A stretch of 64,000 nt of DNA from Nitrospirales bacterium (GTDB lineage: Bacteria > Nitrospirota > Nitrospiria > Nitrospirales > UBA8639), in contig BQIW01000012.1 in the NCBI GenBank assembly GCA_021604105.1, forward strand, positions 1 through 64,000. The letters run 5' to 3'. The first letter of the stretch is position 1. Each line of letters opens with the position of its first letter. A program made the position numbers and the translations under genes. Below, piece after piece: positions 36,465-58,969 of the stretch. The notes under the pieces are model-generated. The model saw only the letters and a program-made list of their open reading frames with translations, was not told where the DNA came from and did not search any database.

Positions 36465-36941
36465 ATGAAAGCAAAAAAGGGGGTTGTGGATTTTCTGAAT
36501 CAAATTTTAACGGAGGAACTGACGGTTATTAACCAATATTTCCTCCATGCTAAAATGTGTGCCAATTGGGGGTATGAACGGTTGGAGAAAAAAATACGGG
36601 AACGAAGTTTTAGTGAGATGAAAGATGCCGACAAAATCATTGAACATATTCTGTATCTTGAAGGCGTGCCCAACGTTCAGCGTCTGGGGACGGTGAAAAT
36701 CGGCGAGACCGTTCCCGAGCAGTTGAAGTTGGATTTAAAGAAAGAACAAGAGATGGTCACCCTCCTGACTGAGGCCATCCAACATTGTTCAAAGGTTGGA
36801 GACTTCACGACGCGGCATCTGTTCGAAGATATGGTGGCAGATGAAGACGAACATATTGACTGGATTGAAACTCAGCAGGAAACAATTAAGCAGGTTGGCC
36901 TCGAGAATTATTTGAGCGAACAAATCAAGAATGAGTCGTAA
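36465..36941 (+). CDS. bfr: Bacterioferritin, haem-ligand subunit
   Basis: Bacterioferritin stores iron as a 24-mer with a di-iron ferroxidase centre and haem between subunits. The 158-residue protein aligns along its whole length with Escherichia coli Bfr. It has Glu18 in LTEELTVINQYF, Glu51 and the haem ligand Met52 in SEMKDADKIIEHIL, Glu94, and Glu127/His130 in DEDEHIDW. The ferroxidase ligand His54 is replaced by Asp. The start is ATG 36465 after AAAGGGAGGTGAGCG, a very strong site. The next gene is a diverged paralogue 84 bases downstream. Confidence 0.95.
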   Translation: MKAKKGVVDFLNQILTEELTVINQYFLHAKMCANWGYERLEKKIRERSFSEMKDADKIIEHILYLEGVPNVQRLGTVKIGETVPEQLKLDLKKEQEMVTLLTEAIQHCSKVGDFTTRHLFEDMVADEDEHIDWIETQQETIKQVGLENYLSEQIKNES

Positions 36942-37025
36942 GATGCCAATCATGAGATGTCGGGCGAACAAGTGGGGAATGTTCCCATTTGTCCACGGCC
37001 CTTTCTCATCAATAAGGAGAGGATC

Positions 37026-37502
37026 ATGAAGGCCAAAGAGGGAGTTCTGGAATTTCTCAATAACATTCTAACGGCCGAGTTGACCGCTGCACATCAATAT
37101 ATTGCGAATGCGGCCATGTGCGGCAATTGGGGATATGATCGGTTGCACCATACGATCCAGGAGCGTGCGTTAGAGGAAGTGACTCATGCGGGAGGCATTG
37201 TTGAGCATATCCTCTACTTAGAAGGAAAGCCGGACATGCAGCGGTTAGGAACGGTCAATGTTGGCCAAACGGTTTTGGATCAGTTTAAGAGTGATTTGAA
37301 ACTTGAAATGGCTGATTTGCAACTTCTGCGCGAGGCCATTGGTCATTGCGATAAGGTTGGAGATTATACGACCCGGCACAAGCTGGAAGAGATGAGTGTG
37401 GATACCGATGAACACATTGACTGGCTGGAAACTCAAATGGAAACAATCAGGCAAGTTGGTCTCGAAAATTACCTAAGCGAGCAGATTAAAAAAGACGGCT
37501 GA
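37026..37502 (+). CDS. bfr: Bacterioferritin paralogue lacking the haem Met and one ferroxidase Glu
   Basis: This 158-residue paralogue of the upstream gene keeps Glu18 (LTAELTAAHQY), Glu51 and His54 (EEVTHAGGIVEHIL), Glu94 and His130. It has Val at haem position Met52 and Thr at Glu127 (VDTDEHIDW). It starts at ATG 37026 after AATAAGGAGAGGATC. The two proteins lose different ligands, as in hetero-oligomeric bacterioferritins of some proteobacteria, so mixed 24-mers are likely. ATG 36957 opens a longer frame but without conserved sequence. Confidence 0.93.
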   Translation: MKAKEGVLEFLNNILTAELTAAHQYIANAAMCGNWGYDRLHHTIQERALEEVTHAGGIVEHILYLEGKPDMQRLGTVNVGQTVLDQFKSDLKLEMADLQLLREAIGHCDKVGDYTTRHKLEEMSVDTDEHIDWLETQMETIRQVGLENYLSEQIKKDG

Positions 37503-37745: not shown

Positions 37746-38268
37746 TCATTCTCTTCGTCCTCGCCGAAAATCCGTTGACAAACTCTGCCTGGAGGATATC
37801 TTCGCTTTTCTGTCGCATGGGACATGGAATGAAACAGACATCTCTTCGTCCTCATGCTCCGGGACGTTGCAGTAAAGTACATATGGATCTTGGCAGAAAA
37901 GAACCTTTGTTTTCCTGACGTTGTCATCAGAAAATTCCTCTCCTTCTTCCATTAACTTCACGGGTACATGTCCGTCGTGACCGATGTGACCTGTGACAGG
38001 TCCTGTATGAACGTTCTCCTGTATCTGGAAAGGTGGCCGGAATCAGGTCAGTACGGAGGAACACCAATTCATGCAGTATCGTTCCGGCATGCACCGCTTG
38101 AAAGGTGATCCAGTCTGCGTTGGCCGTTGTGTGGTTGGGACGCACAGTGAAATCTTGGAGTATGACGTCCATCCGTGATTTTGTATGAGTGGATTGAAAA
38201 AGGATTGGTTGGCCACATCCAAAAATGTCCAGGTCAACGGCAAGGGGAATAAACCTGCGGCCCCTCAT
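37746..38268 (-). pseudogene. Cupredoxin-like gene broken by a frameshift
   Basis: Reading right to left, one frame (38268 down to about 38010) gives a cupredoxin N-terminal half, with DVILQDFTVRPNHTTANADW and VHAGTILHELVFLRTDL. The copper His would be in HELV. The frame then runs into nonsense. The C-terminal half continues in another frame (about 38010-37746) with GHIGHDGHVPVKLMEEGEEF and YVLYCNVPEHEDEEMSVSFH, supplying the Cys, His and Met copper ligands. Type 1 copper proteins of this group read YVLICNLPGHYKAGM here. The break lies near the segment encoding LIPATF. The N terminus has no clear signal peptide and the C terminus runs past the domain, so more lesions are possible. Confidence 0.68.
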
Positions 38269-38384
38269 GTATGAAATCTTGTGTTCCGGTATGTCATCGC
38301 TGGAGATGTTCTTTTGATCCTTCCAGATTATGGGTCATCAAGTACGTTTTCTGGATTGTACTTGATGGATGCCGAATGTGTTCC

Positions 38385-38591
38385 TCAATGACAGATGGTG
38401 GTTTCTGCGTCAATGAGGCCGGGTGCCTTTCGAACCCCGGCGGTGTCTGATACGTGAGCGGCCATTCTGGCCAATTGCATGGCATAGGTGAGGAACTCTT
38501 CTTTCTCGAAATGAAGGGTGATCGACCCATAGGTGAGATGAATACGACTACAATCACAGACGTTCAGCTTGAGTTGTTGATTTGATGACAT
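38385..38591 (-). CDS. Small hypothetical protein (68 aa)
   Basis: A 68-residue protein starts at ATG 38591 after CAGGAGACACCT. It has CDCSRIHLTYGSITLHFEKE and FLTYAMQLARMAAHV, with a Cys-x-Cys near the start and an amphipathic helix. I have the impression of a small family seen beside iron/copper genes in related bacteria but cannot name it. It sits between the peroxiredoxin-like gene and the cupredoxin remnant, all on the minus strand behind one Fur-box-like site. Confidence 0.65.
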   Translation of the reverse strand: MSSNQQLKLNVCDCSRIHLTYGSITLHFEKEEFLTYAMQLARMAAHVSDTAGVRKAPGLIDAETTICH

Positions 38592-38633
38592 AGGTGTCTC
38601 CTGAGTGGTGTGAGGTTGATTTGTGAGGGAGTA

Positions 38634-39185
38634 TTAGCAAAGGGTTGGGTTCAAATCCTGTTCAGCAAACATGAAATTGGCGGGGACAGGATTATCGATT
38701 CGTTCTTGAGTCGGCTGAGTCGAAAAGTCCTGACATTGTTTCAATAGTCCCAAAAGAAGAGTCATGCCATGCCAGTTGAACAAATGGCTCAGTCGGTCTC
38801 TGATTACTCCCTCCGGGTCGAAGATGAAGGTTTGGCATTGGTTTAAGCGAGGTTCCCTCCATACGCCCAAGGCTCGACCTAAGCGGTGTGTGGAGTCAGT
38901 TAACAAAGGGATGGAAAGAATTTTGGTTGTGGGGTGGTGTGCACCGACCAACGAATGAGCGGGGTGTTGCATCCCCAACAGGAGGGCGCCCTGTTTTTGG
39001 ACGGTTCTCCGAAACTGATTGAGAAACACGGCATCGCAAAATTCAAGTTGGGGAAGGCAACATAATATGCCCCATCGTCCCTCCAGGCTCGCGAGATCCA
39101 AATCGATCATATTTCCCTTCAGCAGGGCAGGAACTCTCATGTGTGGCAAAGTGGAATGTCCTATGTTCATGGGGATAGCCTCCAT
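38634..39185 (-). CDS. Peroxiredoxin-like thioredoxin-fold protein with candidate active Cys
   Basis: The 183-residue product is a paralogue of the gene at 34579-35106. Shared features are an N-terminal RVPALLKGNMIDLDL, the strand WGILCCLPQLEFCDAVFL and PLLTDSTHRLGRALG. LEFCD places a Cys where peroxiredoxins have the peroxidatic Cys, although the usual TxxC context is absent. Starts at 39185 (after CGGAGGA) or 39170 (after GGAGG) are both credible. Fur-box-like DNA lies about 150 bases upstream. It probably heads an operon with the small protein and the cupredoxin remnant. Confidence 0.62.
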   Translation of the reverse strand: MEAIPMNIGHSTLPHMRVPALLKGNMIDLDLASLEGRWGILCCLPQLEFCDAVFLNQFRRTVQKQGALLLGMQHPAHSLVGAHHPTTKILSIPLLTDSTHRLGRALGVWREPRLNQCQTFIFDPEGVIRDRLSHLFNWHGMTLLLGLLKQCQDFSTQPTQERIDNPVPANFMFAEQDLNPTLC

Positions 39186-39328
39186 TGGTTATGTCCTCCG
39201 GCTAAAAAGAAAGGTTGGCGCTCCGGAGGAGAAAAAGAGGCCCAACCTTTTTGGGCGGGTATGGGGTAGCACGCCCTTGAATAGTGTTCGTGTTTAAAGA
39301 TTTGATGTGTTTGTGACTTCAAATATAA

Positions 39329-39343
39329 TGATAATGAAATTCA
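39329..39343 (-). promoter_or_regulatory. Fur-box-like operator
   Basis: TGATAATGAAATTCA has a perfect left half (TGATAAT) and 4 of 7 matches in the right half of the 7-1-7 consensus, with ATAATGATAATGAAATTCATT around it. It is upstream of the minus-strand peroxiredoxin-like operon. Confidence 0.58.
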
Positions 39344-39470
39344 TTTGTATTTTCAAGATAAAATTAAAAAAATATGTTGACCATTGCCGATTCATGGTTT
39401 TTGGTGACTTTTTGTTCACGGTTGTCCGGGTAGTGGGAGCGATACAAGCTTCTTGCAAGAGGAAGTCGTC

Positions 39471-39509
39471 AAAAAAACAAGCCCACGGGGAATGTCTCCC
39501 CGTGGGCTT
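39471..39509 (-). terminator. Intrinsic terminator of the di-haem cytochrome gene
   Basis: AAGCCCACGGGGA (39479-39491) pairs perfectly with TCCCCGTGGGCTT (39497-39509) around a five-base loop. On the minus strand the hairpin is followed by G and seven T (39471-39478 complement). It lies 73 bases after the stop of the cytochrome gene. Confidence 0.92.
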
Positions 39510-39581
39510 AATGATGTGCGATTTCGTTCAGTTGTTAGAAATCGGTGAGTACGTTTTTCCTTGAGACGCGATGTCCCTTGT

Positions 39582-41417
39582 TTACTCGTAGTCTTCGTTT
39601 AACGATCGTAGGAATGCCGTTAAGGCCGGAATGTCTTCTTGAATTAAGGCAATGTTTTTCATTTCGGAATCCCCATTGCGAAGCATTCCCTTTCGCGCTA
39701 AATCCGAATTGATAATATACCCTTGAATCACATCTTTAAGAGTATCGGCGATACCGGCGTGACTATAGGGAGCTGAATGACTCAAATCCCGGAGGTCGGG
39801 AGTTTTGAATGCGCCAATAGCTCTCGGGAGGAGTCGATCCGGTCGACAGGCTTGGAAGCCACGAAATACCCCAAAGTGTTCATTGAGGGCGTCCTCGCAG
39901 AGAATTGACCAAATGGGTAGCTGGGATTCGGGGAAATCAGGATTCCAGAAAATGTTCCAAATTCCCAGATCGGTCCATTGGGCGTTGTCCGTCGAGGGAA
40001 TAGCGCGGAATGGTTCTTGAGCATGAGGATGCTTTCCTGTGGCAGGCAGGTAGGCTTCGATATGACTATTTCGTTGATACAATGCGGGTATTTCCAGCAT
40101 GGAAAACGATTCGGGGCCGTGAATGCGTTCATACTCCATTTGGGCGATTCCCGTGTTGTGAAAACGGAAGTCGGTAAAATTTGGTGGCGTATGACAGGCA
40201 ATGCAATTCCCAATTCCTCCCTTGGCTTGGTCACTGGGCCGAATGTGATGGCCTTTATGGCGATCCTTGTGTCGACCCGGTTGGGTGAAAAAGATTTTCA
40301 GCCCTGCTAATTCTTCAGGCCCAAAAGTGAACGGTTGGTCATGGAATTGAAATTGGCCGTCTGCCGTATGGGGATTCTTCTCAACGAATTGCAGAGTCGG
40401 GCCATCGGTAGAAGAGGACGAGGGCCATCGGGAGTAATCGTCCGGATCGTATGATTCGAGAAATCGAATCTGTTTGAGCAATCGACGGGTATATGACCTG
40501 GGAGATTCCCACTTATCAGGTTGACGGGGCAAATCGTTGATTTCAAGAAAGACGTCATAGGGAGAAAGATTGAAACTTCCATCCTCGTCTTGTGAGAAGA
40601 GGAGTTGGTCCGTATAGGCGGCGATGAGTTGTGAAACGGCCTGGACAAGTTCCCGGTCGGTGGCTTGAGAAACCTCTACACGAAATTCTTCAGGAATCAG
40701 AAATTCTTGAGGAATAGATGGATCGGTTCCGGTGAACATGACTCCATAGGACAGCCCGCCAAACTCCTGCGCCAGATCTCCGGTTCCCGAGTCTTCTCGA
40801 ATAATTCTGGCAATATGTGAGATGGCAGCTTCCTGTTCGTCGGGAAGCCATCCAAAGTTCCGTCCGGTGAGTGTGCCTTTAACCAAATCTACCATCGTCG
40901 GGAACTCAGCATCGGCATGAAGAAAAAACATTTGTCGAGGAAGAGCGGCATTAACGAGCGGTGGCGCGTTTCGGACCGCGGTGAGTTTTCCATCTTCCCG
41001 GGCTGGAATAGGACTCCGTCGTGCAAAATCCGAATAGGTATTCATTCCGTAGTTCGGAATATCGAGAAGTTCGTCTACAAAGTGGCAACTCCGGCAGTTT
41101 ATCGATTGACCGGCAAACGGGCCATCGGCAAATTGATCGGGTGGGAGTTTGGCATTCGCCACGTTGTCGAGGGCGGAATCACCTTGCGTCAAGGGATCAT
41201 TTACATCGCCCCCGTCATCCAGAAAAATTTTAAATAATTGAGCAAATCGGGTTTCCAGAAACAATCGTTCACCGTTGGTGACTTCCGGAGGATCAGCCTC
41301 TTCGGCTTCCTGGGCGAACACCAGAGGTGCATTGACGAAAAAGGATAGAGTTGAGGTGAGGACGGCAATACAAAAGACCTGAGCGAAAGAGAAAAGAATA
41401 GATGTTTTGACGTTCAC
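39582..41417 (-). CDS. Di-haem cytochrome c peroxidase / MauG family protein, large
   Basis: A 611-residue exported protein with a signal peptide (about residues 1-35, ending VFAQ). It contains two c-type haem motifs, INCRSCH (about residue 103) and GNCIACH (about 406), and the family C-terminal segment LRDLSHSAPYSHAGIADTLK. Peroxidases of this family reduce hydrogen peroxide, while MauG-like members oxidise protein residues. It is nearly twice the size of classical CcpA-type enzymes, with a long domain before and between haems. It stands alone with its own terminator. Which reaction it catalyses cannot be read from the sequence. Confidence 0.88.
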   Translation of the reverse strand: MNVKTSILFSFAQVFCIAVLTSTLSFFVNAPLVFAQEAEEADPPEVTNGERLFLETRFAQLFKIFLDDGGDVNDPLTQGDSALDNVANAKLPPDQFADGPFAGQSINCRSCHFVDELLDIPNYGMNTYSDFARRSPIPAREDGKLTAVRNAPPLVNAALPRQMFFLHADAEFPTMVDLVKGTLTGRNFGWLPDEQEAAISHIARIIREDSGTGDLAQEFGGLSYGVMFTGTDPSIPQEFLIPEEFRVEVSQATDRELVQAVSQLIAAYTDQLLFSQDEDGSFNLSPYDVFLEINDLPRQPDKWESPRSYTRRLLKQIRFLESYDPDDYSRWPSSSSTDGPTLQFVEKNPHTADGQFQFHDQPFTFGPEELAGLKIFFTQPGRHKDRHKGHHIRPSDQAKGGIGNCIACHTPPNFTDFRFHNTGIAQMEYERIHGPESFSMLEIPALYQRNSHIEAYLPATGKHPHAQEPFRAIPSTDNAQWTDLGIWNIFWNPDFPESQLPIWSILCEDALNEHFGVFRGFQACRPDRLLPRAIGAFKTPDLRDLSHSAPYSHAGIADTLKDVIQGYIINSDLARKGMLRNGDSEMKNIALIQEDIPALTAFLRSLNEDYE

Positions 41418-41636
41418 GGGGGCACCTCGCTTTAAAAAGAATGAATGAATGGTCGGAGAAATCCTCTTTGATCTCCCTTATGGATGAATGGTGAACGTAA
41501 CCTCACACGTCATGTGTTGAGGCGGAGCGAGGCGAGGGGGACAGGAGGAGGCCCACCCCCTCGCCTACATGAGGATGAATGAAAGGGTATTCATCCTCGG
41601 GATATATGAAGAATCAGGGCATGGCGTTCCTTGATC

Positions 41637-41677
41637 ACAAAAAAAGCCCATGAGCATGCACTGGCAGCTCATGGGCT
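41637..41677 (-). terminator. Intrinsic terminator, minus strand
   Basis: AGCCCATGAGC (41645-41655) pairs with GCTCATGGGCT (41667-41677). On the minus strand the stem is followed by a run of T (complement of the A-run ending at 41645). It lies just after the remnant at 41723-41810 and could serve the operon that ends with the lipoprotein at 41891. Confidence 0.85.
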
Positions 41678-41722
41678 CTGGACTCTAAAAGTCTCGGGCC
41701 TTAGGAATCTGGTGAGACGTAC

Positions 41723-41810
41723 TTAGTCGTCAGACTCTGGCATGATCAGTTTCCCTATTTGACACCGCATTTCATTTATGGATATGACGAACATCATAAA
41801 AAGTCTGCGG
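41723..41810 (-). pseudogene. Degenerate partial copy of the four-TM membrane protein C terminus
   Basis: The minus strand encodes FMMFVISINEMRCQIGKLIM followed by PESDD and stop. This parallels the end of the intact gene at 42363-42875, which reads FVIPMYEMWWQKSAFMMPDSDD in two parts. Nucleotide similarity is also obvious over about 85 bases (for example TTTCATTTATGGATATGACGAACAT against TTTCATACATGGGTATGACGAACAT, compared piecewise). No start codon or upstream part is present. It shows a past duplication or partial deletion beside the operon. Confidence 0.8.
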
Positions 41811-41890
41811 TTGATTCGAAGATCCTCAGGTAATACGTTAAGGTACACTCGGACAACATCCGGGAATTAAGTTAATGCAAAGGTCGGAAT

Positions 41891-42271
41891 TTATGGCTTT
41901 TGAGCCAAAAACCAGCCTTTGCTGTTCATGCATTTCGCCAAGGCCTCATCAGTTATTCCTTTGCTGAATGGGTTCAATGAGGTCTCGGAATGAACGTCAT
42001 CGATGAGGATGCCACGACATGAGCGCAGATCCTGCTCGAATTCCTTCTCACCGGCGTCTGGCTTTGCCCAATACAAATCTGAAGCACAGGCAGAAAGAAA
42101 GACGGAAAAAAGGCTGATACCTACCCATGCCCCATAGCCATGGTGAGGAGGCCTTGACCTGGCCGATGTGCGATGTGGCCGATGAGCCTGCCCCTTTCTC
42201 ATGAAAGCCTGGTCGTCTGAATCGATTGAGTGAGGAGGGTCGTGTCGCATTCCATTCAAAAGATCACGCAT
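41891..42271 (-). CDS. Predicted lipoprotein
   Basis: The product carries a hydrophobic segment and lipobox (WVGISLFSVFLSAC), then a mature domain of about 65 residues with DLRSCRGILIDD and ALAKCMNSKGWFLAQKP, a two-Cys pattern found in many small outer-membrane lipoproteins. The long N-terminal region suggests that the real start is inside, for example ATG 42202, which would give a 103-residue precursor. It is the last gene of the probable operon 44060-41891 (lipoprotein, FMN-binding, four-TM, lipoprotein). Confidence 0.65.
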   Translation of the reverse strand: MRDLLNGMRHDPPHSIDSDDQAFMRKGQAHRPHRTSARSRPPHHGYGAWVGISLFSVFLSACASDLYWAKPDAGEKEFEQDLRSCRGILIDDVHSETSLNPFSKGITDEALAKCMNSKGWFLAQKP

Positions 42272-42362
42272 TCATTTCAAGCCAACCGGGTGGTCGAAGT
42301 GACCCGAGTTTCGGCATGGGTCCGGGCACAGAATGTTCTTCAAACTGGAGAAAGGACATAAG

Positions 42363-42875
42363 TTAATCATCCGAATCTGGCATCATAAAGGCGGATTTTT
42401 GCCACCACATTTCATACATGGGTATGACGAACATGATGAGAAATCCTACGACCATCAGGATGTCTCCGGTCAACATGGTAATGGTAAAGATTGGGGATAC
42501 ATACGCAATCAGCCAAGGTGAAATCAAATCCAGGGTAACCCCGACAAAGGCCATCCATGTCGTAACCACTTTTAGTGTGGGGCTGACCATTGTGAGATAG
42601 AGCACATGCACCAAAATCATGAATGTGACCGGCATGGTAAACAGATGAAAATGTGTGGTCTCGGCCAGTTGACCAAACGGCATTGGTTCACCAAATGTCG
42701 CATCAGACCCACGGTAATGTTCGGCAAGACCTTTGAGACTTAATTCGGTCATGCTATGAGCCCAGAAGAAGGTGAATATAAATCCTGCAAGCATGAGCAG
42801 GAGAAACCAGGTATAGACTAAGCGGATATGGCGGTCGGTATCACGAAGCCGGAAGCGGGCATTAAAATTTCGCAT
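42363..42875 (-). CDS. Four-TM inner-membrane protein, possible b-type haem carrier
   Basis: The 170-residue protein has four hydrophobic helices (about 20-40, 76-96, 104-124, 133-155). It has conserved-looking histidines at the second helix (ETTHFHLFTMPVTF) and HVLYLT, and an N-terminal basic DTDRHIRLVY. The histidine spacing would allow haem binding, but this is inference. It follows the FMN-binding protein by 16 bases and precedes a lipoprotein, suggesting a membrane electron-transfer module. A degraded copy of its 3' end is at 41723-41810. Confidence 0.65.
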   Translation of the reverse strand: MRNFNARFRLRDTDRHIRLVYTWFLLLMLAGFIFTFFWAHSMTELSLKGLAEHYRGSDATFGEPMPFGQLAETTHFHLFTMPVTFMILVHVLYLTMVSPTLKVVTTWMAFVGVTLDLISPWLIAYVSPIFTITMLTGDILMVVGFLIMFVIPMYEMWWQKSAFMMPDSDD

Positions 42876-42891
42876 TCCATTCTTGCAGTAG

Positions 42892-43578
42892 TTAGAACCC
42901 CAGCAGGGACTCCAAAAAGCTTTTGTCCGATCGGCTGGCGGTATTCATAGAGGAGCCGTGACTCTGGGTGTGTAAGTAGAGTTCATGGGCCAGGACCAGG
43001 GCGCGTTTAACCCCGGCACTCATGGACCGCACCGACATGGTGGCGCCGGAAATGTTGATGATATCCCGGTTAATCCGAATGGGGTCTTCAACTGTTTTTC
43101 CTTGGTATTGGTAATTGAATCGTTTTTTTCCCACTTCGCTTCCCCGTGATTCTCGGTATACCAATACTTCAACGTTGGTGACTTCTCCATTGGGGTCAAC
43201 GCCTACCATGTAGGTCATCGCCTTATGCTTACCGATTGTATTTTGGATGAAGCCCCATCCATCAATTTGTCCATTGGTTTCTCCAATGAAGCATTCAAAG
43301 GTCGATTCCGGAAATTGCCATCCAATTCGTTCCTCAATGAGTCGCTTCTGATCCTGGGTGAGATTGATGACCTCCATGCGTATGGAATGGGATTCAGGAA
43401 ATGTCAATTTTGCGGCTTCTTCCGGAGTCAGATAGACGTCTTCTTGAACCATTTCTTGGGGGGTGAGGTATCGGTTCAAATCCTGATCCCAAATTCGCTC
43501 CTCTTGGGCCTGGCCCAATGAGGTCAGGCCAATAAAAAGAAGTGTATTGAGGAGGGTAATCAGGATTCGATGAAACAT
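42892..43578 (-). CDS. Exported FMN-binding domain protein
   Basis: The 228-residue precursor has a signal peptide (residues 1-24, ending GQAQ). It carries an FMN-binding domain of the NqrC/RnfG type, with GKHKAMTYMVGVDPNGEVTN and the flavinylation-like motif INISGATMSVRSM, where the Thr of SGAT accepts FMN through a phosphoester. ApbE, the transferase that performs this attachment, is encoded at 46864-47868. The protein probably passes electrons in the periplasm, with the four-TM protein as partner. It overlaps the upstream lipoprotein gene by 19 bases. Confidence 0.85.
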   Translation of the reverse strand: MFHRILITLLNTLLFIGLTSLGQAQEERIWDQDLNRYLTPQEMVQEDVYLTPEEAAKLTFPESHSIRMEVINLTQDQKRLIEERIGWQFPESTFECFIGETNGQIDGWGFIQNTIGKHKAMTYMVGVDPNGEVTNVEVLVYRESRGSEVGKKRFNYQYQGKTVEDPIRINRDIINISGATMSVRSMSAGVKRALVLAHELYLHTQSHGSSMNTASRSDKSFLESLLGF

Positions 43579-44060
43579 CCTTCAGCCTCAAGTTTTTCGG
43601 TTAAGTTGTGTAAAATGTGATTGACGGCTTGTTGTGATGGTTCGACCGGATACCAATCATAAAGTCTGGCGCCCCCACGGAATCCCCAATGTTGCCGCCG
43701 TTCGGCAATTTGGAGTCGCACGGCATTAGAGTCGAGGGGCTTCAAGGTCAGGGTCAGTTGCGACCGTTCCTTGTCCCCCATGCCTTCCCGTTGGAAAAGA
43801 CCATACTTGGCGCCTTCCACATATTCCACCCGCCACCCGGTTTCGATTACTCCGTTGGACTTGTCTTTCTTCGTTACGGGGTAGGCCCTGAGGGTTTCCA
43901 GGGAGGAATTCCATACGGAATCAATTGGGCAGGCCATGTATCGATCGACAATCAGGTCTTGACCGGAAAGGAAAGCGCAGCCCAGAAAAAACAGTGGGCA
44001 TACAAAAATTGAGATCCCACGAATCAGGGAAGAAAAAGAAAGGGTCAACATAAAAACCAA
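43560..44060 (-). CDS. Predicted lipoprotein (166 aa)
   Basis: The N terminus is hydrophobic with lipobox FFLGC (Cys about residue 28). The mature part has VDRYMACPIDSVWNSSLETL, KSNGVIETGWRVEY and RLQIAERRQHWGFRGGARLY, a pattern like small BamC/NlpB-type or DUF lipoprotein domains, but I cannot name the family with confidence. The start could be ATG 44060 or 44051. A Fur-box-like site is 60-80 bases upstream. It probably leads the operon with the FMN-binding protein. Confidence 0.72.
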   Translation of the reverse strand: MVFMLTLSFSSLIRGISIFVCPLFFLGCAFLSGQDLIVDRYMACPIDSVWNSSLETLRAYPVTKKDKSNGVIETGWRVEYVEGAKYGLFQREGMGDKERSQLTLTLKPLDSNAVRLQIAERRQHWGFRGGARLYDWYPVEPSQQAVNHILHNLTEKLEAEGCFIES

Positions 44061-44123
44061 TATGAAAGAAAGATCGAGATGGATGAATTAAAAAACGAGA
44101 ATGATTTTCGATTTATTTGAATA

Positions 44124-44138
44124 TGATTCTCATTATGA
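44124..44138 (-). promoter_or_regulatory. Fur-box-like operator
   Basis: TGATTCTCATTATGA matches the 7-1-7 Fur consensus at 11 of 14 positions and is extended by GAGAAATAATG. A second partial copy (GAGAATGATTTTCG) is at 44097-44110, closer to the gene. It is placed just upstream of the lipoprotein/FMN operon on the minus strand. Confidence 0.65.
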
Positions 44139-44238
44139 GAAATAATGCCAAATTGTATCACCCGATGTTCAAGGCGGTCAACCGGTATGGTCTTTGAACT
44201 CTGATCTGATGTGGTCCATATATTTCGAGACTGGTTGA

Positions 44239-44281
44239 AAATAAAAAACAGAGAGAAAAGGCGTAGCCTTTTCTCTCTGTT
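44239..44281 (-). terminator. Intrinsic terminator of the porin gene
   Basis: AACAGAGAGAAAAGGC (44247-44262) pairs with GCCTTTTCTCTCTGTT (44266-44281) around a three-base loop. On the minus strand a T-rich tract (complement of GAAAATAAAA) follows. It lies 26 bases after the porin stop. Confidence 0.9.
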
Positions 44282-44306
44282 TCCCTGTCCCCTTTATAGA
44301 GAACTC

Positions 44307-45704
44307 TTAGAAATACGTGGCCCAGGATGCCACAAACGCCGTATCGTGTATACGTTCATTCCCATCACGACCGACCGGAGTGTATTGGAAGTCGGCTTTA
44401 AAGACGGTATCCTCCGTGGGACGGAAGTTTAGGCCGAAGGTCCAGCGTTGCCATTCCCCCAATTTTCCGGCTTCGGTGTTGTCATTTAAGTCCTGTCCCA
44501 GATTCATTTGTTCCCAGCGGACTATAGCCGTGAAGGTAGAAACTTCCTGCTTGAAGTAGCTGGGGGCCATTCTGGTTAGCCATTCCGGAAGGAAATGGTA
44601 ATTCCCTTGTAAATAATACCCCTGCATTCTGCGTGGATTGCCGTTCTGGGTTCCGTCTTGATTGATATTATTGTCCTTGACGTAAGCCCAGGCACTTTCT
44701 CCGATGAATTCAAAGGGGCCTCGTTGGAAGGTCCAATCCAGAGCCCAAATGGCCAATTGATTATCATCATTTGAGCCATAATTTCCATAAAATCCCGAAC
44801 CACCGATTTCCACCCCCAAAACGGGGCTGAACGCGACACGTCCCATTAGGGATTTGCCGTTATTATTGTCAAAGTTGGTGTTGCTTGAGCGAGCCGAGCG
44901 TATTCCGTTGGTTTGGTTGATATTGGACGTGTTGTCAGGATTTCCGTTTCCTCCAAAGGCATTGGTGAATCCATTGGTGACGTAGAATTCATAATCCAGC
45001 TTTGAGAGAGAGGTGGGATAGAACGTGCCGTAAGCTCCAACGCCAGGTTGGTGAAGCGTTGTTGGGATGATCCGTTGGTTGACGAGTGGGCGTTCGGTGA
45101 GATCACGGAGTGGGGCGTCATGCAGGAGGTTGAATTTTCCAAGTGGAACGAGGATGATGCCCGCCCGCAAGTTAATGGGTTCTTGTAAGAGATAGTCGAT
45201 GGTGGCAAATTCCACCTTAATGTCGTTGGTTCCATGCTCGAATTCAATTTCCGCCGCGAATTTCACGCGCTCACTGATGTCCCCGTATATGAAGGGTACC
45301 AACCGGTGTTGATCAAAATAGCTGTTTCCCTGATTGGCCCGGTTAAAGTACTCGATGTCCATGTAACCGCCGACGATGGCCTTGGGAGAAGAGACGAAGG
45401 GACGGGCATAGATCAGACCTCCTGACCCTTGCATGGAGGAATCGGCTTTTTGACGCTTCCCTTTAACCGTGCCAAGGTCCTGAAGGTTTTTCCCCGAATC
45501 GACTGGGTCCGGGGCGGTTCCTGGTTGGGCCATCGGTGGCCGGACTGCCTCTGGGGTCCCGCGCCCTTTCAGATAGTCTTGGACTGCTTGTCGAACCGCC
45601 TCCTGTTGAGCCGGCGTCAGTTCTTCTTCACCTGAGGCGGAGAAGGCCGGAGAAAACGAAAACACAGAGAGGCCCATAAGGACCCCGATTGTGAACTTCT
45701 TCAT
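44307..45704 (-). CDS. Outer-membrane porin, phosphate-selective porin O/P-like
   Basis: The 465-residue protein has a signal peptide ending PAFSA, a helical stretch (LTPAQQEAVRQAVQDYL), a Pro-rich linker, then a beta-barrel of alternating strands. Recognisable parts are SPKAIVGGYMDIEYFNRANQ, EFEHGTNDIKVEFATIDYLL and INLRAGIILVPLGKFNLLHD, typical of the OprO/OprP-like group. It ends FVASWATYF with the C-terminal Phe needed for BAM recognition. The binding site AGGAGGTATTC lies before ATG 45704. The substrate cannot be inferred. It may serve iron or anion uptake in this Fur region. Confidence 0.85.
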   Translation of the reverse strand: MKKFTIGVLMGLSVFSFSPAFSASGEEELTPAQQEAVRQAVQDYLKGRGTPEAVRPPMAQPGTAPDPVDSGKNLQDLGTVKGKRQKADSSMQGSGGLIYARPFVSSPKAIVGGYMDIEYFNRANQGNSYFDQHRLVPFIYGDISERVKFAAEIEFEHGTNDIKVEFATIDYLLQEPINLRAGIILVPLGKFNLLHDAPLRDLTERPLVNQRIIPTTLHQPGVGAYGTFYPTSLSKLDYEFYVTNGFTNAFGGNGNPDNTSNINQTNGIRSARSSNTNFDNNNGKSLMGRVAFSPVLGVEIGGSGFYGNYGSNDDNQLAIWALDWTFQRGPFEFIGESAWAYVKDNNINQDGTQNGNPRRMQGYYLQGNYHFLPEWLTRMAPSYFKQEVSTFTAIVRWEQMNLGQDLNDNTEAGKLGEWQRWTFGLNFRPTEDTVFKADFQYTPVGRDGNERIHDTAFVASWATYF

Positions 45705-46186
45705 GAATGAATACCTCCTAATATATAGGATTGGGACGCGGAGGTCCTCAGGAAAGGAGTCGGGGACTCAGGGTCCTCAATGGAGGGAACGATATGATGA
45801 TCTGTGAATCGGAACGCAACGCATTTTCAGGAGTACACTCAATTGAAGGGTCAACCCCGTCATTAGTCGCTCAATACGGTAAATGGAATGAAAACAAGAC
45901 GCTTGCAGCGTTTGCATTTCAATTCCACTCCATCTTTTTTTAGGATGGCCATCAGCTGCCCGCAATGACAGCGCGCCTCTGTGGCAGTTGTACATGGAGA
46001 AGCTATAACTGTTTCCTGAGTCATCTTTGATGTTGAAAGTAATTATTATTAATTTTGAAATTGATAACTGTTCTTAACAGGGCTCTTAATACCGCATAGG
46101 TTTGGCTTGTGTCAAGAAGGTTCCGTTTTTTTCGTATATTTTAATGTGTGAGACTTTGAGAAACTAAAGCGGTATATAATGACTTG
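45705..46186. other. Divergent intergenic region
   Basis: Apart from the 53-codon Com-like frame, this region carries AT-rich DNA between the minus-strand porin side and the plus-strand lipoprotein. TATAAT at 46175-46180 lies only seven bases before ATG 46187, which hints at leaderless transcription if it is a real -10 element. No matching -35 is visible. Confidence 0.4.
45863..46024 (-). CDS. Com-like small zinc-finger protein (53 aa)
   Basis: ATG 46024 to TAA 45863 on the minus strand encodes a 53-residue protein whose core is ARCHCGQLMAILKKDGVELK followed by CKRCKRLVFIPF. The spacing of CxC and CxxC around a basic hairpin is that of the Mu Com family, which bind mRNA or act as small zinc fingers. 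No good Shine-Dalgarno is seen, and the A/T-rich DNA upstream (46035-46075) looks regulatory. It is transcribed towards the porin gene. Confidence 0.6.
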   Translation of the reverse strand: MTQETVIASPCTTATEARCHCGQLMAILKKDGVELKCKRCKRLVFIPFTVLSD

Positions 46187-46798
46187 ATGGCTATACGGAC
46201 TGCTCTTGCTTGCTGTCTAGGGTTTTTAGGGCTTCTTGTTGGCATGAGTATGGGATGCGCGCATCAGCTTCCCTCTCACCCCTCTCAAGAAGACCTCACG
46301 GAGCCCCTTGTTTTCGGACACATTCACGTGTGGCAGGAAAAGCCGTCAGGAAGAATGTACCTCCCTGAATTAGCCTCACTTGAATTCAGCTCCAGGGATG
46401 GTCAACGGCGGTATCGTGTGGAAATCGAGGCGGCTTCCTCCTATTTTTTTCTGTCATTGAAGCCAGGGCAGTATCAGGTGAATCGAGTCGTCATTCAGGA
46501 AGGGGAGTTTCGATCCAGTGCGGAAGTTCCGTTAACTTTTGAGGTTCCTGATCGAGGAGTGGTGTATCTTGGCGGTTGGCGAATACAGGTTGATCCTCCG
46601 AATTATACAAGAGAGTTAGAGGTAACCATAGTCTCCGAATCCGTTGAAGCCATCGCGGAAATGATGGTTCGTTATCCATCTCTTTCTTCACATGTGGTCC
46701 TGTCCTCTCTGGCGGAACCTCCGTTATTACGGGCGCGATTGTTTGAAGTCACACCCTACCCCAGATTCCGATATTTCAATCGTCATAATTCCACATAA
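46187..46798 (+). CDS. Predicted lipoprotein (203 aa)
   Basis: The N terminus TALACCLGFLGLLVGMSMGC is a lipoprotein signal with lipobox SMGC. The mature part is beta-rich, with VFGHIHVWQEKPSGRMYLPE, RRYRVEIEAASSYFFLSLKP and GVVYLGGWRIQVDP, resembling carboxypeptidase-regulatory or PEGA-like folds. No specific family is recognised. ATG 46187 is preferred to the adjacent TTG 46184. It is followed 65 bases later by apbE on the same strand, so both may act at the envelope. Confidence 0.7.
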   Translation: MAIRTALACCLGFLGLLVGMSMGCAHQLPSHPSQEDLTEPLVFGHIHVWQEKPSGRMYLPELASLEFSSRDGQRRYRVEIEAASSYFFLSLKPGQYQVNRVVIQEGEFRSSAEVPLTFEVPDRGVVYLGGWRIQVDPPNYTRELEVTIVSESVEAIAEMMVRYPSLSSHVVLSSLAEPPLLRARLFEVTPYPRFRYFNRHNST

Positions 46799-46863
46799 AT
46801 TCTTTCAATCGGAACTCCAGCTGTTCTGAAATCAACGTGTGTGTTGAGGATAGGAGAGTAATC

Positions 46864-47868
46864 ATGGGGCGAATGCAGAATATTCTTGGACTGTGCTTGT
46901 TCATGCTCTTCCTGGCGGGATGCCAGGGCACGCCTCATTTGGTGAAGCGCAGTCAGATGCTGATGGGAACCGTGGTGTTTGTCACCGCAGTTGGAGCAGA
47001 TGAGATGATTGCGCAGGGAGCGGTCCAGGCGGGACTTGATGAAATCCGGCGGTTAGAAGAGTTGTTGAGCACCTGGATTCCAACCAGTGAGTTATCACAG
47101 GTGAATGCGGCGGCGGGACGGGAACCCATACAGGTGAGTCCGGAAACCTTTGAAGTCCTCACTCGATCCCTGGAGGTGGCGAAGCTTACCCACGGAGGGT
47201 TCAATATCGCCCTGGGTCCAGCGGTGAATGCATGGAATGTCAGCGGGGAAGGGCAGGTTCCCTCCCAGGAAGATCTGGAAGCGCTTCGCCCCCAGATGGA
47301 GTTATCGGACATGCAATTAGATGAAAACGCGCGCAGTGTGTGGTTGCGTCGTCCTGGGATGTCTATTGATGTTGGGGGGATCGGGAAAGGGTATGCGGCT
47401 GACCTCGCTGCCAGAGTGATGCAGAGATCAGGGGCGATAGCAGGCGTGGTCGCTTTGTCGGGGGATATTAAAACGTTCGGACGTATGCCGGATTCCCAAC
47501 GCTTTGTTTTTGGAATCCAGCATCCCCGAAAGCGGCAGGGCGAAATCCTAGGGCGGATCGAGTTGGAGGATGAAGCCGTCTCCACAGCAGGAGATTATCA
47601 ACGGTATTTTATGCAGGACGGGGTTCGCTTTCACCATATCCTTGATCCCAAGACCCTTCATCCCGCTCGAGGATGTCAAAGTGTCACAGTCATAGCCAAG
47701 GAGGGTGTGATGGCCGATGGGTTGGATACCGGCGTGTTTGTCATGGGTCCTGACAAAGGCATGGCCCTAATTGAGGCTTTGCCGGATGTTGAAGGGGTGA
47801 TTGTCGATCAGGAAGGAGCGGTGGTTGTCTCATCCGGTCTCAAGAGTCGCTTCAGTCCTGAGCCGTAA
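46864..47868 (+). CDS. apbE: FAD:protein FMN transferase ApbE
   Basis: ApbE is a periplasmic Mg-dependent enzyme that transfers FMN from FAD to Thr/Ser of target proteins. The 334-residue precursor is a lipoprotein (LFMLFLAGC). It shows QMLMGTVVFVTAVGADEM, MSIDVGGIGKGYAADLAA, ALSGDIKTFG, HHILDPKTLHPARG and VMADGLDTGVFVMG, all family signatures. ATG 46864 behind AGGAGAG is chosen over GTG 46837. Its likely target here is the FMN-binding protein at 42892-43578. Confidence 0.95.
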   Translation: MGRMQNILGLCLFMLFLAGCQGTPHLVKRSQMLMGTVVFVTAVGADEMIAQGAVQAGLDEIRRLEELLSTWIPTSELSQVNAAAGREPIQVSPETFEVLTRSLEVAKLTHGGFNIALGPAVNAWNVSGEGQVPSQEDLEALRPQMELSDMQLDENARSVWLRRPGMSIDVGGIGKGYAADLAARVMQRSGAIAGVVALSGDIKTFGRMPDSQRFVFGIQHPRKRQGEILGRIELEDEAVSTAGDYQRYFMQDGVRFHHILDPKTLHPARGCQSVTVIAKEGVMADGLDTGVFVMGPDKGMALIEALPDVEGVIVDQEGAVVVSSGLKSRFSPEP

Positions 47869-47888
47869 CAACGTGTTCAACCCCACTC

Positions 47889-47921
47889 AAAAAAAAGGAG
47901 GCATGAAGCCTCCTTTTTTAT
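47889..47921. terminator. Bidirectional intrinsic terminator
   Basis: AAAAAAGGAGGC (47891-47902) pairs with GCCTCCTTTTTT (47908-47919) around a five-base loop, giving T-tracts on both strands. It lies between the convergent apbE and the Spy/CpxP-like gene. Confidence 0.93.
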
Positions 47922-47941
47922 TAAGCAGAGAAGAGGGCTGC

Positions 47942-48601
47942 TTAGCTTTTTTTGTCCTTGGAATGGTGAGAATACCCGCCTGGATGACCTTTCGTCATCC
48001 CGCCCTTCTGGTGGGCATTGATGCGATCATGGACCGCTTTCATGCGAGAGCGTTGCTCGTCCGTTAATACGGCCTTGGCGTCGCGCCCGGCTTTGACTGA
48101 TGCCAGGTACAGGCCGGCACGAATTTCATAAAGACTCTTCAGCTTCGATTCCACAGCACCCAAATCCCCTTGGTCATTCCGCAACAACTCGTGCAAGTCC
48201 AAGCTGGTCAGTTGCATGTCCGCTTTCATTTTAATTTTGTTTTTTTCAAAATTGGTTTTTATCGTCTGAAGTTTTGCCACCTGGTCTTCGGTAAGGGCCA
48301 TGCCTTCTTTGAATTTCAAAATGTGTTCGATGAATTCAGAGGCACTTTGATGAGGACCATGTCCTGATTTGTGGGGGCTTCCTCCTTTGTCATAGCCTCC
48401 CGACATGCTTGCACCATGATGCGTGTACCCGTGGCTATAGGCTCCTGTTCCGTGGGGGGACGTGTTGTATCCGGAGGGGTGGTGCGCATCTCCTCCATAG
48501 CCCGTCGCTAAACCCATGGCGGGGAACCCCAGAATTAAGGATAAGACACCGGACCAAAGTGGAATCATTCGTTTGTGGTGGGATTTGCCTTTAATAGTCA
48601 T
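47942..48601 (-). CDS. Spy/CpxP-like periplasmic protein with His/Gly-rich N-terminal region
   Basis: The 219-residue precursor has a signal peptide (residues 8-33, ending GLATG). A stretch of about 60 residues rich in His, Gly, Tyr and Ser follows (HHPSGYNTSPHGTGAYSHGY and more). The C-terminal helical domain carries LTXXQ-type repeats: ALTEDQVAKLQTIK and VLTDEQRSRMKAVHDRI. Spy/CpxP proteins act as periplasmic chaperones or stress sensors, and the His-rich part suggests metal binding (copper, zinc or nickel). A weak Fur-like ATTAT half-site lies at 48685-48699 upstream. Confidence 0.8.
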   Translation of the reverse strand: MTIKGKSHHKRMIPLWSGVLSLILGFPAMGLATGYGGDAHHPSGYNTSPHGTGAYSHGYTHHGASMSGGYDKGGSPHKSGHGPHQSASEFIEHILKFKEGMALTEDQVAKLQTIKTNFEKNKIKMKADMQLTSLDLHELLRNDQGDLGAVESKLKSLYEIRAGLYLASVKAGRDAKAVLTDEQRSRMKAVHDRINAHQKGGMTKGHPGGYSHHSKDKKS

Positions 48602-48925
48602 GTGAACAGCCTCCTTTCGCGATAAAAAACCCTATGGTGTAAAAAATGAGAGGACAAGTCATGTGATCAGTGAGTTTCCTGAACCAATTCTCATTATACA
48701 CAGGAATGCGGAAAATGTAGCGCGTGAGCCCCTATCTTATCTCAAAAATTCAAGAGGTTACACAACCCCACTGGGTTGAGACCCTGCTCGGAACTCAAGG
48801 AAGGCGGGTGCGCACGTGGGATGGAGTTTTTGGATCGGGAAGGGATCGAACCACAGTCCATTTGGGAAGCATCCGTTATCAAAAGGAAAAAGCTGTGGAC
48901 AAAGGGGAAGGGGAAGCCGTCCGCA
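48602..48925. other. Gene-free stretch between the Spy-like gene and fur
   Basis: No gene is supported. A GGGATCGAACC motif near 48840 resembles the end of a tRNA in reverse orientation, but no cloverleaf can be built around it. Confidence 0.45.
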
Positions 48926-49360
48926 TCAGGCATTTTTGCAGGTATTGCAGAGACCGTACAGTTCCAGCTTATGGGTCTGAATGGTAAAGCCGTTTTTTCT
49001 CGCCACTTCTTCTTGTAAGTTTTCGATTTGGCAATTTTGAAATTCGACTATTTTTCCGCAGGAGGTGCAAATGAGGTGATCATGATGACCCTTATGGGAC
49101 ACATTATCGAACTGCGTTTGTGAGCCGAAATGGCGTTCCTGGGCCAGGTCGGTTTCACAGAATAATTTGAGCGTGCGATAGATGGTGGCCAGGCCAATAT
49201 GCGGGTCTTTTTTAGCGAGGATATGATATAACTGCTCGGCAGTGACATGCTCCATTTTGAGAAAGGTCGTCAGGATTAACTCGCGTTGACGAGTCAGTTT
49301 GAGGCTGTTTTTTTGGAGATGATGCTTGAGTGTTTCGAGTTCTTTGACCGGTTTAGCCAT
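48926..49360 (-). CDS. fur: Ferric uptake regulator, Fur family
   Basis: The 144-residue regulator has the winged-helix N terminus (LKLTRQRELILTTFLKMEHV, ATIYRTLKLFCETDLAQE) and the metal-binding dimer domain with HKGHHDHLICTSCGKIVEF and a second Cys pair GLCNTC near the end. Fur represses iron genes when Fe(II) is plentiful. The Fur-box-like sites at 35239, 39329 and 44124 are its probable targets. Discrimination from PerR or Zur is not secure from sequence alone, but the HHDHLIC and CxxC arrangement and the iron-gene context favour Fur. Confidence 0.9.
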   Translation of the reverse strand: MAKPVKELETLKHHLQKNSLKLTRQRELILTTFLKMEHVTAEQLYHILAKKDPHIGLATIYRTLKLFCETDLAQERHFGSQTQFDNVSHKGHHDHLICTSCGKIVEFQNCQIENLQEEVARKNGFTIQTHKLELYGLCNTCKNA

Positions 49361-49473
49361 GGTGAAATCTTCCTTAAGATAAGAAGAAGATGGTTATTAA
49401 ACCTCAATTATCCAAGGTAATCAAGAATTATTTTGTCGTTTTTGGTATTGGTGGAGAAATTTAGGGAGTACCT

Positions 49474-50034
49474 ATGAGAAAACCCTCAGAAGTGACCGGT
49501 GACCGCGCTTTGCTGATTTATACGTTGCATTTGACCGAATCCATGGGACTGATGAGTGACGTGAAACTTCAACAATTATTATTCCTCTGTGAATTGCAAA
49601 TGTTGGGGAAAGGATTGAAAGGGTTGCATTTTGAATTTGTCCGATTTCCCTATGGGGCCTTTAGCAAGGACGTGGATAACGATTTGCTCTTCTTGCGTAG
49701 AAAGGAACGGATAGAGAATTTTGATGTCACGGAACAGGCTGAGGGGGTTGTGGGCTTGGTTGAGAAGATCATGAAGGAACCCGAAGCCAATCAACAGGTC
49801 ATGGAAATTATTCAGACGGTGGTTGAGAAATACGGGCCAATGGATACCAGCGCCATCATGAGTGCCGTGGAGGCCGTGGAATTAGGCCCGGCTGATAATC
49901 CTGAGCAAAAACTTGCTATCCGGGATATTTCCTTCCATACCATTATGCTGGTGCCCTCGCGGATTGAAGCGACCGAAGCTATCACGCTGTCACCTGCACA
50001 GGTAAAAACCTTAAATACGGCGATGGGGTATTAA
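49474..50034 (+). CDS. Panacea/SocA-like domain protein
   Basis: The 186-residue protein has VKLQQLLFLCELQMLGKGLK followed by FEFVRFPYGAFSKDV. This resembles the Panacea (DUF4065, SocA/GepA) domain with its KLQKLLYLA...YGP pattern. The following residues are helical. Panacea proteins often act as antitoxins or adaptors for proteolysis, and no toxin gene is next to it. The start is ATG 49474 after TTTAGGGAGTACCT. I am moderately sure of the family. Confidence 0.55.
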   Translation: MRKPSEVTGDRALLIYTLHLTESMGLMSDVKLQQLLFLCELQMLGKGLKGLHFEFVRFPYGAFSKDVDNDLLFLRRKERIENFDVTEQAEGVVGLVEKIMKEPEANQQVMEIIQTVVEKYGPMDTSAIMSAVEAVELGPADNPEQKLAIRDISFHTIMLVPSRIEATEAITLSPAQVKTLNTAMGY

Positions 50035-55363: not shown

Positions 55364-55449
55364 CGCACGTTTTTTGTGCAATGTGAATGTCGCAGAAACC
55401 AGCGAATCTGAAACCGCCCACTGAGAGATACCAAGACGCCGGAGATCAC

Positions 55450-56619: not shown

Positions 56620-56653
56620 ACGAGAGGGCATAATCCACGGAGGGAAGAAGGGA

Positions 56654-57781: not shown

Positions 57782-57833
57782 GGCACGCCTTTATCAACGC
57801 CAGAAAAATCCTTTGGTAGAGCTATAACGGCTT

Positions 57834-58727: not shown

Positions 58728-58969
58728 AAGTTTACTATAACCGATACAGAGGGGGAGAGGGCCTGGTCGGTTCCCTCTAACACGATAAAGCGGTGGTCGC
58801 TTGATTGATGCGCGCAATCAGGCATAGATCCAGACTAATCTTCGCGGGGAAGTAGGGGGAAGCTCAGGCGGACTGAAGTAGTATTGATATTTAGATTTAC
58901 ACAAGCCGCCTATAATGATCGTATTTTGTTGAATAGTGAGTTGACACAAATTTTACCAAAACGTAGTCT

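Follow-up and report, generated by a model that had tools for sequence, protein, structure and literature searches.

The genes at positions 42363-47868 of the window (the whole stretch of 64,000 nucleotides that was analysed, from contig BQIW01000012.1 of a Nitrospirales bacterium) are, on balance, best explained as a flavin-based ferric reductase that is under Fur control and serves iron assimilation, with the small protein TM4 as its putative membrane electron donor. We favour this reading because of the gene content and its conservation, the natural fusions of ApbE with its substrate, the iron neighbourhood, the enrichment of Fur boxes and the invariant histidines of TM4. New here are the link to iron and Fur, and TM4 as an unnamed partner of an otherwise known kind of flavin module.

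All six ORFs named in the initial annotation are present. The strand reading gives two divergent gene sets rather than a single operon: ORF53, porin, LPa, FMN_bind protein and TM4 follow each other on the minus strand, and LPb and ApbE lie on the plus strand. An Rfam search of 38000-50000 gave no matches. The relevant features are:

36465..37502 (36465-36941 and 36957-37502), plus strand: two ferritin-like (bacterioferritin-type) genes, PF00210
42363..42875, minus strand: TM4, membrane protein of 170 residues and four helices, possible b-type cytochrome and candidate electron donor to the flavoprotein
42892..43578, minus strand: FMN_bind protein, PF04205, carrying a signal peptide and the SGAT motif for flavinylation
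43560..44060, minus strand: LPa, lipoprotein, weak DUF3576
44096..44138, no strand: three overlapping or adjacent Fur-box-like sites 5' of LPa (44096, 11/14; 44118, 12/14; 44124, 11/14)
44307..45704, minus strand: porin, predicted 16-strand outer-membrane barrel of OprP/OprO-like fold with N-terminal extension
45863..46024, minus strand: ORF53, 53 residues, Cys4 (CxCG...CxxC), heading the minus-strand set, weakly Com-like
46034..46076, no strand: two Fur-box-like sites (46034 and 46062, each 11/14) between ORF53 and LPb-ApbE, directly 5' of the former
46184..46798, plus strand: LPb, lipoprotein 5' of ApbE, without family
46837..47868, plus strand: ApbE lipoprotein (FAD:protein FMN transferase), PF02424
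48926..49360, minus strand: Fur-family regulator gene adjoining the module, PF01475 (E 2.5e-36)

The contig scan retained 80 of 146 relatives, all of Nitrospirota type apart from one labelled 'Nitrospinota' (L153) and one labelled 'Nitrosospira' (L189). Conservation of the neighbourhood, a check set beforehand, was clearly found. The gene immediately upstream of TM4 is FMN_bind in 104/105 distinct loci with enough flank, which is more than chance. The porin is present in 86/88 distinct loci, LPa in 89/102 and ApbE in 69/77, while in 79/86 ORF53 precedes the porin on its strand at a distance below 900 bp; since the loci are related to each other, these counts are not independent. The gene set extends to other Nitrospirota orders.

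The FMN_bind domain was identified by Pfam profile search (PF04205, E 1.4e-10, 42.1 bits against a cut-off of 22). Its translation contains SGAT, an instance of the [ST]GA[TS] acceptor motif whose Thr we take to be the FMN acceptor, and [ST]GAT[ML]S is found in the FMN_bind proteins of 27/27 Nitrospirales sequences. The fold and the acceptor motif are common to RnfG/NqrC-type proteins, RnfG being the nearest solved relative; in contrast to those, the window contains no adjoining Nqr or Rnf genes, and the scores of the NCBIfam RnfG models fall well short of their cut-offs. ApbE is assigned with E 1.4e-81 (PF02424), and ADxxxT and D[VI]GGIGKG, its metal-site and glycine-rich motifs, are kept in 22/22 relatives. 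Lipobox cysteines are seen in the sequences of ApbE, LPa and LPb. A genome-wide search returned a single ApbE and a single FMN_bind match in the window's own genome, which bears out the original proposal of a module for flavin-based electron transfer that has an ApbE of its own. Extra copies in the second-cluster loci L095 and L096, which were read whole, belong to an Nqr-like operon, named by gene order and lengths. Consequently, where such an operon is missing, ApbE should serve the FMN_bind protein of the module. In 7 of 12 outgroup loci, which also carry TM4-FMN pairs, ApbE is fused to FMN_bind via an internal Tat-type signal, and all seven fused proteins contain SGA[TS]. This natural fusion makes the enzyme-substrate pairing, and where in the cell flavinylation happens, directly testable.

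For TM4, hydropathy and the AlphaFold model agree on four membrane helices and a short loop helix. Tyr54, Gly56, Glu72, His75, His77 and His90 are invariant in 112/112 distinct sequences; Glu72 and the three histidines share one helix, with a spacing of 13 residues between His77 and His90. His75, His77 and His90 are possible haem b ligands. Invariant histidines are a requirement for a b-type cytochrome, not proof of one. The initial annotation had expected a distinct membrane partner, and this agrees with profile searches of Pfam, NCBIfam and PDB sequences, in which TM4 matched no family. Among 27 members, PepSY-like, MsrQ-like, NapH-like, DsbD, NQR/RNF-like and ferric-reductase Pfam families were absent at E values up to 1; all but the last of these were likewise absent from six outgroup TM4s. 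Kinship with Urate_ox_N (weak matches in 3/27, best E 0.014) and with Ni_hydr_CYTB (1/27, E 0.98) was considered and dropped. The fold search with the TM4 model returned middling matches to unrelated helical proteins only and says nothing for or against a cytochrome fold, and a search among plasmids gave no matches. In a sister group of TM4 a CxxCH motif follows helix 1 and precedes helix 2, as would suit an electron-transfer fold.

Comparable partners are known. In Meheust 2021 (PMC8238504), PepSY-like (FoxB-type) and MsrQ-like cytochromes are likewise encoded with FMN_bind and ApbE, and PepSY-like clusters are tied to iron genes and Fur; the words Nitrospir and porin are absent from its main text. 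TM4 differs from these cytochromes in having four helices and no PepSY, MsrQ or ferric-reductase profile match, and the partners and the porin differ as well. In Huang 2024 (PMC10979944, PMC11334425), where neither text names Nitrospirota, DUF4405 is a small His-bearing membrane cytochrome co-located with apbE, and FezC is a small His-bearing, iron-linked membrane protein modelled as a homodimer holding haem b. TM4 shares with DUF4405 the small size, the histidines and the proximity to apbE, but the DUF4405 profile matched neither TM4, nor the 27 members, nor the six outgroup TM4s. With FezC, TM4 has in common the small size, the histidines and the iron context.

Among the 71 distinct module loci that span at least 12 kb, 52 have iron genes nearby (Fur, FbpA, FbpB, ferritin, FTR1 or FeoB), compared with 0/7 paralogue loci and 0/20 control regions, the latter hand-picked from the same genomes rather than drawn at random by program. 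Speaking against the iron reading, thirteen of the 71 loci are without any iron-linked gene sought, ExbBD/TonB included. For the neighbouring ABC transporter the best NCBIfam models are of phosphonate or polyamine type and below cut-off. The FbpA-like binding protein found next to the module in relatives is similar to Fe(3+)-binding proteins whose structures are solved (E down to 8e-48), and this PDB comparison points to iron as the substrate.

Upstream of ORF53 a Fur box of at least 12/14 was found in 55/80 loci and in 0/252 control upstream regions. At a threshold of at least 11/14 the numbers are 71/80 and 10/252, and the window's own sites score just 11-12 of 14, the lower value being one also seen in those 10 controls. 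Within 300 bp before the porin, a box of at least 12/14 is present in only 4/88, because ORF53 sits in between. These promoter sites suggest that the module falls in the Fur regulon. ORF53 itself has its Cys4 motif in 81/82 sequences. Together with its relatives it matches Com-type profiles (PHROGs) weakly (E 0.0017-0.016; Pfam score below cut-off). In contrast to Com of phage Mu, a zinc-ribbon translational regulator, it is chromosomal and lies within a putative iron operon. The initial annotation did not mention the link to iron and Fur, ORF53 or the ApbE-FMN_bind fusions.

The LPa ORF opens with TTG and contains an in-frame ATG at 44051, so that its start is uncertain; the lipobox Cys and two further cysteines are invariant. 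LPa barely passes DUF3576 (29.4 bits against a cut-off of 25, across 31 residues only), and neither the LPa profile nor the porin profile gave a significant match to PDB sequences. For LPb, tblastn matches were found in 12/32 loci (L095-L126). The porin model has a mean pLDDT of 63.6. OprP and OprO are its nearest folds (the two best matches have Z 26.8, with rmsd 4.4 over 329 aligned residues, and Z 26.6) and are anion porins, likewise 16-strand barrels. The module porin differs in its Fur-linked context and has at most 17% identity over the aligned part.

Three other explanations have to be weighed. Membership of an inner-membrane, a periplasmic and an outer-membrane set kept order-wide would suit a respiratory or extracellular electron chain towards an acceptor such as Fe(III) or Mn(IV), running from the inner to the outer membrane via the lipoproteins and the porin. 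The initial annotation had proposed such a membrane-spanning route as plausible, and this part of it did not gain support, in contrast to the module, its own ApbE, the unmatched partner and the co-conservation. The LPa, LPb and porin genes of the scanned loci contain no CxxCH motif, the model of the porin is a plain OprP-like barrel better read as a diffusion pore, and Fur boxes and iron-uptake neighbours favour assimilation. We therefore consider such a chain improbable. To much the same degree we doubt a periplasmic reductase for copper, peroxide, disulfide or methionine sulfoxide with merely co-located iron genes: MauG-like di-haem proteins (12/33 loci) and LTXXQ/Spy-like proteins (11/33) do adjoin the module, but they are rarer than the core genes, and the Fur boxes recur across distant lineages.

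Slightly less improbable, yet still unlikely, is that TM4 is not a cytochrome but a ferrous-iron permease or metal-binding chaperone, in which Glu72, His75, His77, His53 and His90 form a metal path and the FMN protein supplies Fe(II) using another electron source. The invariant Glu72, His75, His77 and His90 in one helix could indeed bind metal. Moreover, searches of the window's own genome, which is 96% complete, gave no FbpA (searched for without a positive control), FTR1 or Nramp, and the two top-scoring FeoB_N hits there are GTPases of Der and MnmE type. Hence no importer for reduced iron was identified there among these families, which speaks against the favoured reading and leaves room for TM4 in this role. 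However, relatives with adjoining FbpBC, FTR1 or FeoB still keep TM4 or its FMN partner, and in the sister proteins this fold includes a c-haem motif. In addition, an FMN_bind protein on its own depends on a donor of electrons in the membrane, and TM4 is the only conserved candidate beside it.

For the favoured ferric reductase, we infer haem in TM4, a quinol donor, a TM4 dimer, ferric iron as acceptor and the direction of flow. Under iron shortage, Fur repression would be lifted, and the ORF53-porin-LPa-FMN-TM4 operon and the divergent LPb-ApbE genes would be expressed. ApbE would join FMN to the SGAT Thr of the exported FMN_bind protein. TM4 would probably be a homodimer in which His77 and His90 (and His75) hold haem b. 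It would draw electrons from the quinol pool and carry them over the inner membrane to the FMN protein, which may dock at the conserved periplasmic loop of TM4. Ferric iron would enter via the OprP-like porin and be reduced by the FMN protein for import.

Going further is tentative. TM4 might be the first of a new class of membrane donors linked to flavinylation, a b-cytochrome in minimal, homodimeric form, and the module might be the chief way in which nitrite-oxidising Nitrospira reduce iron. In sister lineages the flavin transferase might act within the cytoplasm, in cis, on the substrate at its own C-terminus, and this substrate would then leave pre-loaded via the internal Tat signal. Nitrospira are key nitrite oxidisers, comammox strains are complete nitrifiers, and this lifestyle is iron-demanding. 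Their iron acquisition is little described in the searchable literature, and searches of open-licence PMC articles returned no paper on this module. The family of membrane proteins to which TM4 belongs has had no name and keeps three histidines invariant, and the module is a concrete, order-wide candidate for iron acquisition in Nitrospira.

The module lies on both strands of the window, with iron-related genes and candidate Fur sites around it (families scored against Pfam and NCBIfam):

45863–46024, minus strand: ORF53, an open reading frame of 53 aa
44307–45704, minus strand: porin, no match
43560–44060, minus strand: lipoprotein LPa, DUF3576 passed with 31 residues covered
42892–43578, minus strand: FMN_bind protein, above the Pfam cut-off
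42363–42875, minus strand: TM4, a four-helix membrane protein, no match
46184–46798, plus strand, divergent: lipoprotein LPb, no match
46837–47868, plus strand, divergent: ApbE, above the Pfam cut-off
46034 and 46062: Fur-box-like sites before ORF53, 11/14 each
44096, 44118 and 44124: Fur-box-like sites before LPa, 11/14, 12/14 and 11/14
48926–49360: Fur
36465–37502: two ferritin-like genes

In the window LPa and the FMN_bind ORF overlap at the 3′ end of LPa, with TM4 a short way downstream; the single FMN_bind match and the single ApbE match of this 4.9-Mb genome both lie inside the module. That these genes are conserved together, as the initial annotation presumed, was confirmed in 112 distinct loci including the window (loci with identical TM4 DNA and those of CxxCH-containing sister proteins were left out; gene counts are limited to loci with enough upstream sequence). 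FMN_bind is found directly 5′ of TM4 in 104/105 loci; LPa is present in 89/102, the porin in 86/88 and ApbE in 69/77 (divergently oriented in 63 of these, co-oriented in 6). The one locus lacking FMN_bind, L141, apparently belongs to the same genome as L118, where a truncated FMN_bind adjoins TM4. The gap between FMN_bind and TM4 is at most 50 bases in 100 of the 109 distinct loci with both genes, 10 of these 100 overlapping. Among 59 genomes sampled from the order, our own counted, TM4 is present in 55, the porin in 54, FMN_bind and ApbE in 52 each and LPa in 51; phylum-wide, TM4 occurs in 103 of 295 genomes if the longer sister proteins are included. Three loci (L095–L097) carry a second FMN_bind copy, and L095 and L096 also a second ApbE copy, within an Nqr-like six-gene cluster named by gene order and lengths.

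ApbE and FMN_bind form a single ORF of 501–596 aa adjoining TM4 in 7 of the 12 loci from outside Nitrospirales (L213–L218 and L220). BLAST detected the porin in six of them, the exception being L215, whose sequence stops near the fusion. In all seven fusions no clear signal peptide is seen on the ApbE half, whereas the linker between the halves carries a twin-arginine motif and, after it, a hydrophobic stretch; NCBIfam scored a Tat signal there in L216, the sole fusion submitted. The same linker and FMN half are visible in L219, an eighth locus cut by the contig end. In the other four (L221–L224) FMN_bind adjoins TM4, with no ApbE detected within the available stretch. Judged from this architecture, the fusion ties ApbE to the FMN_bind protein of the module as its predicted substrate, and the internal Tat-type signal suggests flavin attachment in the cytoplasm, ahead of export, in these lineages. 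Alternatively, translation may possibly start internally at the Tat signal.

Iron genes recur around the module. In Nitrospirales relatives its neighbours are an FbpABC-like ABC transporter, whose binding protein resembles Fe(3+)-binding proteins of solved structure (best E 8e-48), ExbB-ExbD-TonB and ferritins; in outgroup loci Fur, FeoB and an FTR1 accompanied by a cupredoxin protein are also present. Of the 71 distinct module loci that span 12 kb or more, 52 contain Fur, FbpA, FbpB, ferritin, FTR1 or FeoB. None of these genes is present in 20 control regions (15 kb each, chosen by hand within the same genomes) or in seven sister-protein loci. With ExbB, ExbD and TonB added, the counts are 58/71 and 2/20 (Fisher p 5.7e-9, uncorrected for relatedness of the loci), and 13 of the 71 contain none of the iron genes sought.

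Upstream of ORF53 (245 bp, 80 loci), sites scoring at least 12/14 against the Fur-box pattern TGA[TG]AATNATT[AC]TCA are found in 55 loci versus 0 of 252 control upstream regions, and sites at 11/14 or better in 71 versus 10. One exact site, TAATAATCGTTCTCA, is common to many loci at varying distance from ORF53, and distant loci show different sequences with the same pattern, e.g. TGATAATGATTCTCA in L217. Since 12/14 is expected by chance about once per 64 kb, the Fur-box assignment is drawn from the set of loci and not from the window by itself. ORF53 is a Cys4 protein (CxCG...CxxC in 81/82 sequences) with no signal peptide recognizable by eye and weak matches to Com-type regulators. In 79 of the 86 loci, which span the phylum and include the outgroups, it lies on the same strand as the porin and less than 900 bp before it. 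The protein may regulate the operon by binding RNA or metal.

Six of the TM4 residues checked (Y54, G56, E72, H75, H77 and H90) are invariant across the 112 sequences. H53 is retained in 108; H40 is retained in 98, its losses falling mainly in the 12 outgroup sequences. Because six arginines precede helix 1, the positive-inside rule predicts a cytoplasmic N-terminus and a periplasmic H53–E72 loop. H75 and H77 would then sit towards the periplasmic end of helix 2, with H90 13 residues deeper than H77. Histidines spaced like this within a single helix are typically found where two haems b are stacked across a membrane. Haem b held by TM4 in this way would require a homodimer. In this respect TM4 would parallel FezC, which has been modelled as a homodimer (PMC11334425). 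With a mean pLDDT of 76.3 the AlphaFold model of TM4 is moderate in quality, and its fold matches were uninformative. The sister proteins (243–271 aa, with CxxCH, a c-haem motif, between helices 1 and 2) retain the HxH pair, with Gly or another residue at the position of H90, and their genes are not near FMN_bind or ApbE. Flavin and iron genes are absent near this family (L226–L232); in L229 a gene resembling, by eye, a NiFe hydrogenase large subunit precedes the sister gene.

The 3′ end of TM4 recurs in degenerate form at 41726–41842 (minus strand; blastn 39/48 bases, tblastn E 2e-5), and similar fragments occur in genomes G012 and G001. A MauG/MbnH-like di-haem protein with two CxxCH motifs is encoded at 39582–41417 (minus strand), and such a gene is found downstream of the module in 12/33 loci. 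Neighbouring genes at 53387–61545 encode TPR-S, patatin, TIR and SMODS-like nucleotidyltransferase domains, around which G+C is raised (52–58 kb); this region is a possible defence island.

The module probably serves iron assimilation, and TM4 acting as its haem-b electron donor is the role we favour with some reserve. TM4 could instead be a ferrous-iron permease. We retain this rival, unlikely as we judge it, because the genome gave no match to FbpA, FTR1 or Nramp, and its two top-scoring FeoB_N hits are, judged by sequence, Der and MnmE.

With TM4 as electron donor, the predicted working resembles that of known iron-linked flavinylation systems with PepSY, MsrQ or DUF4405 partners, as described in the parts consulted of PMC8238504 and PMC10979944. 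However, TM4 fits none of these three families by sequence, which bears out the distinct membrane partner proposed initially. As the searched text of both papers also makes no mention of Nitrospirota or porins, we count the module as a new variation on a known sort of flavinylation system. Loosely read, a Fur-controlled, flavin-based ferric reductase for iron assimilation with TM4 as membrane electron donor is the best explanation, held at slightly better than even confidence.
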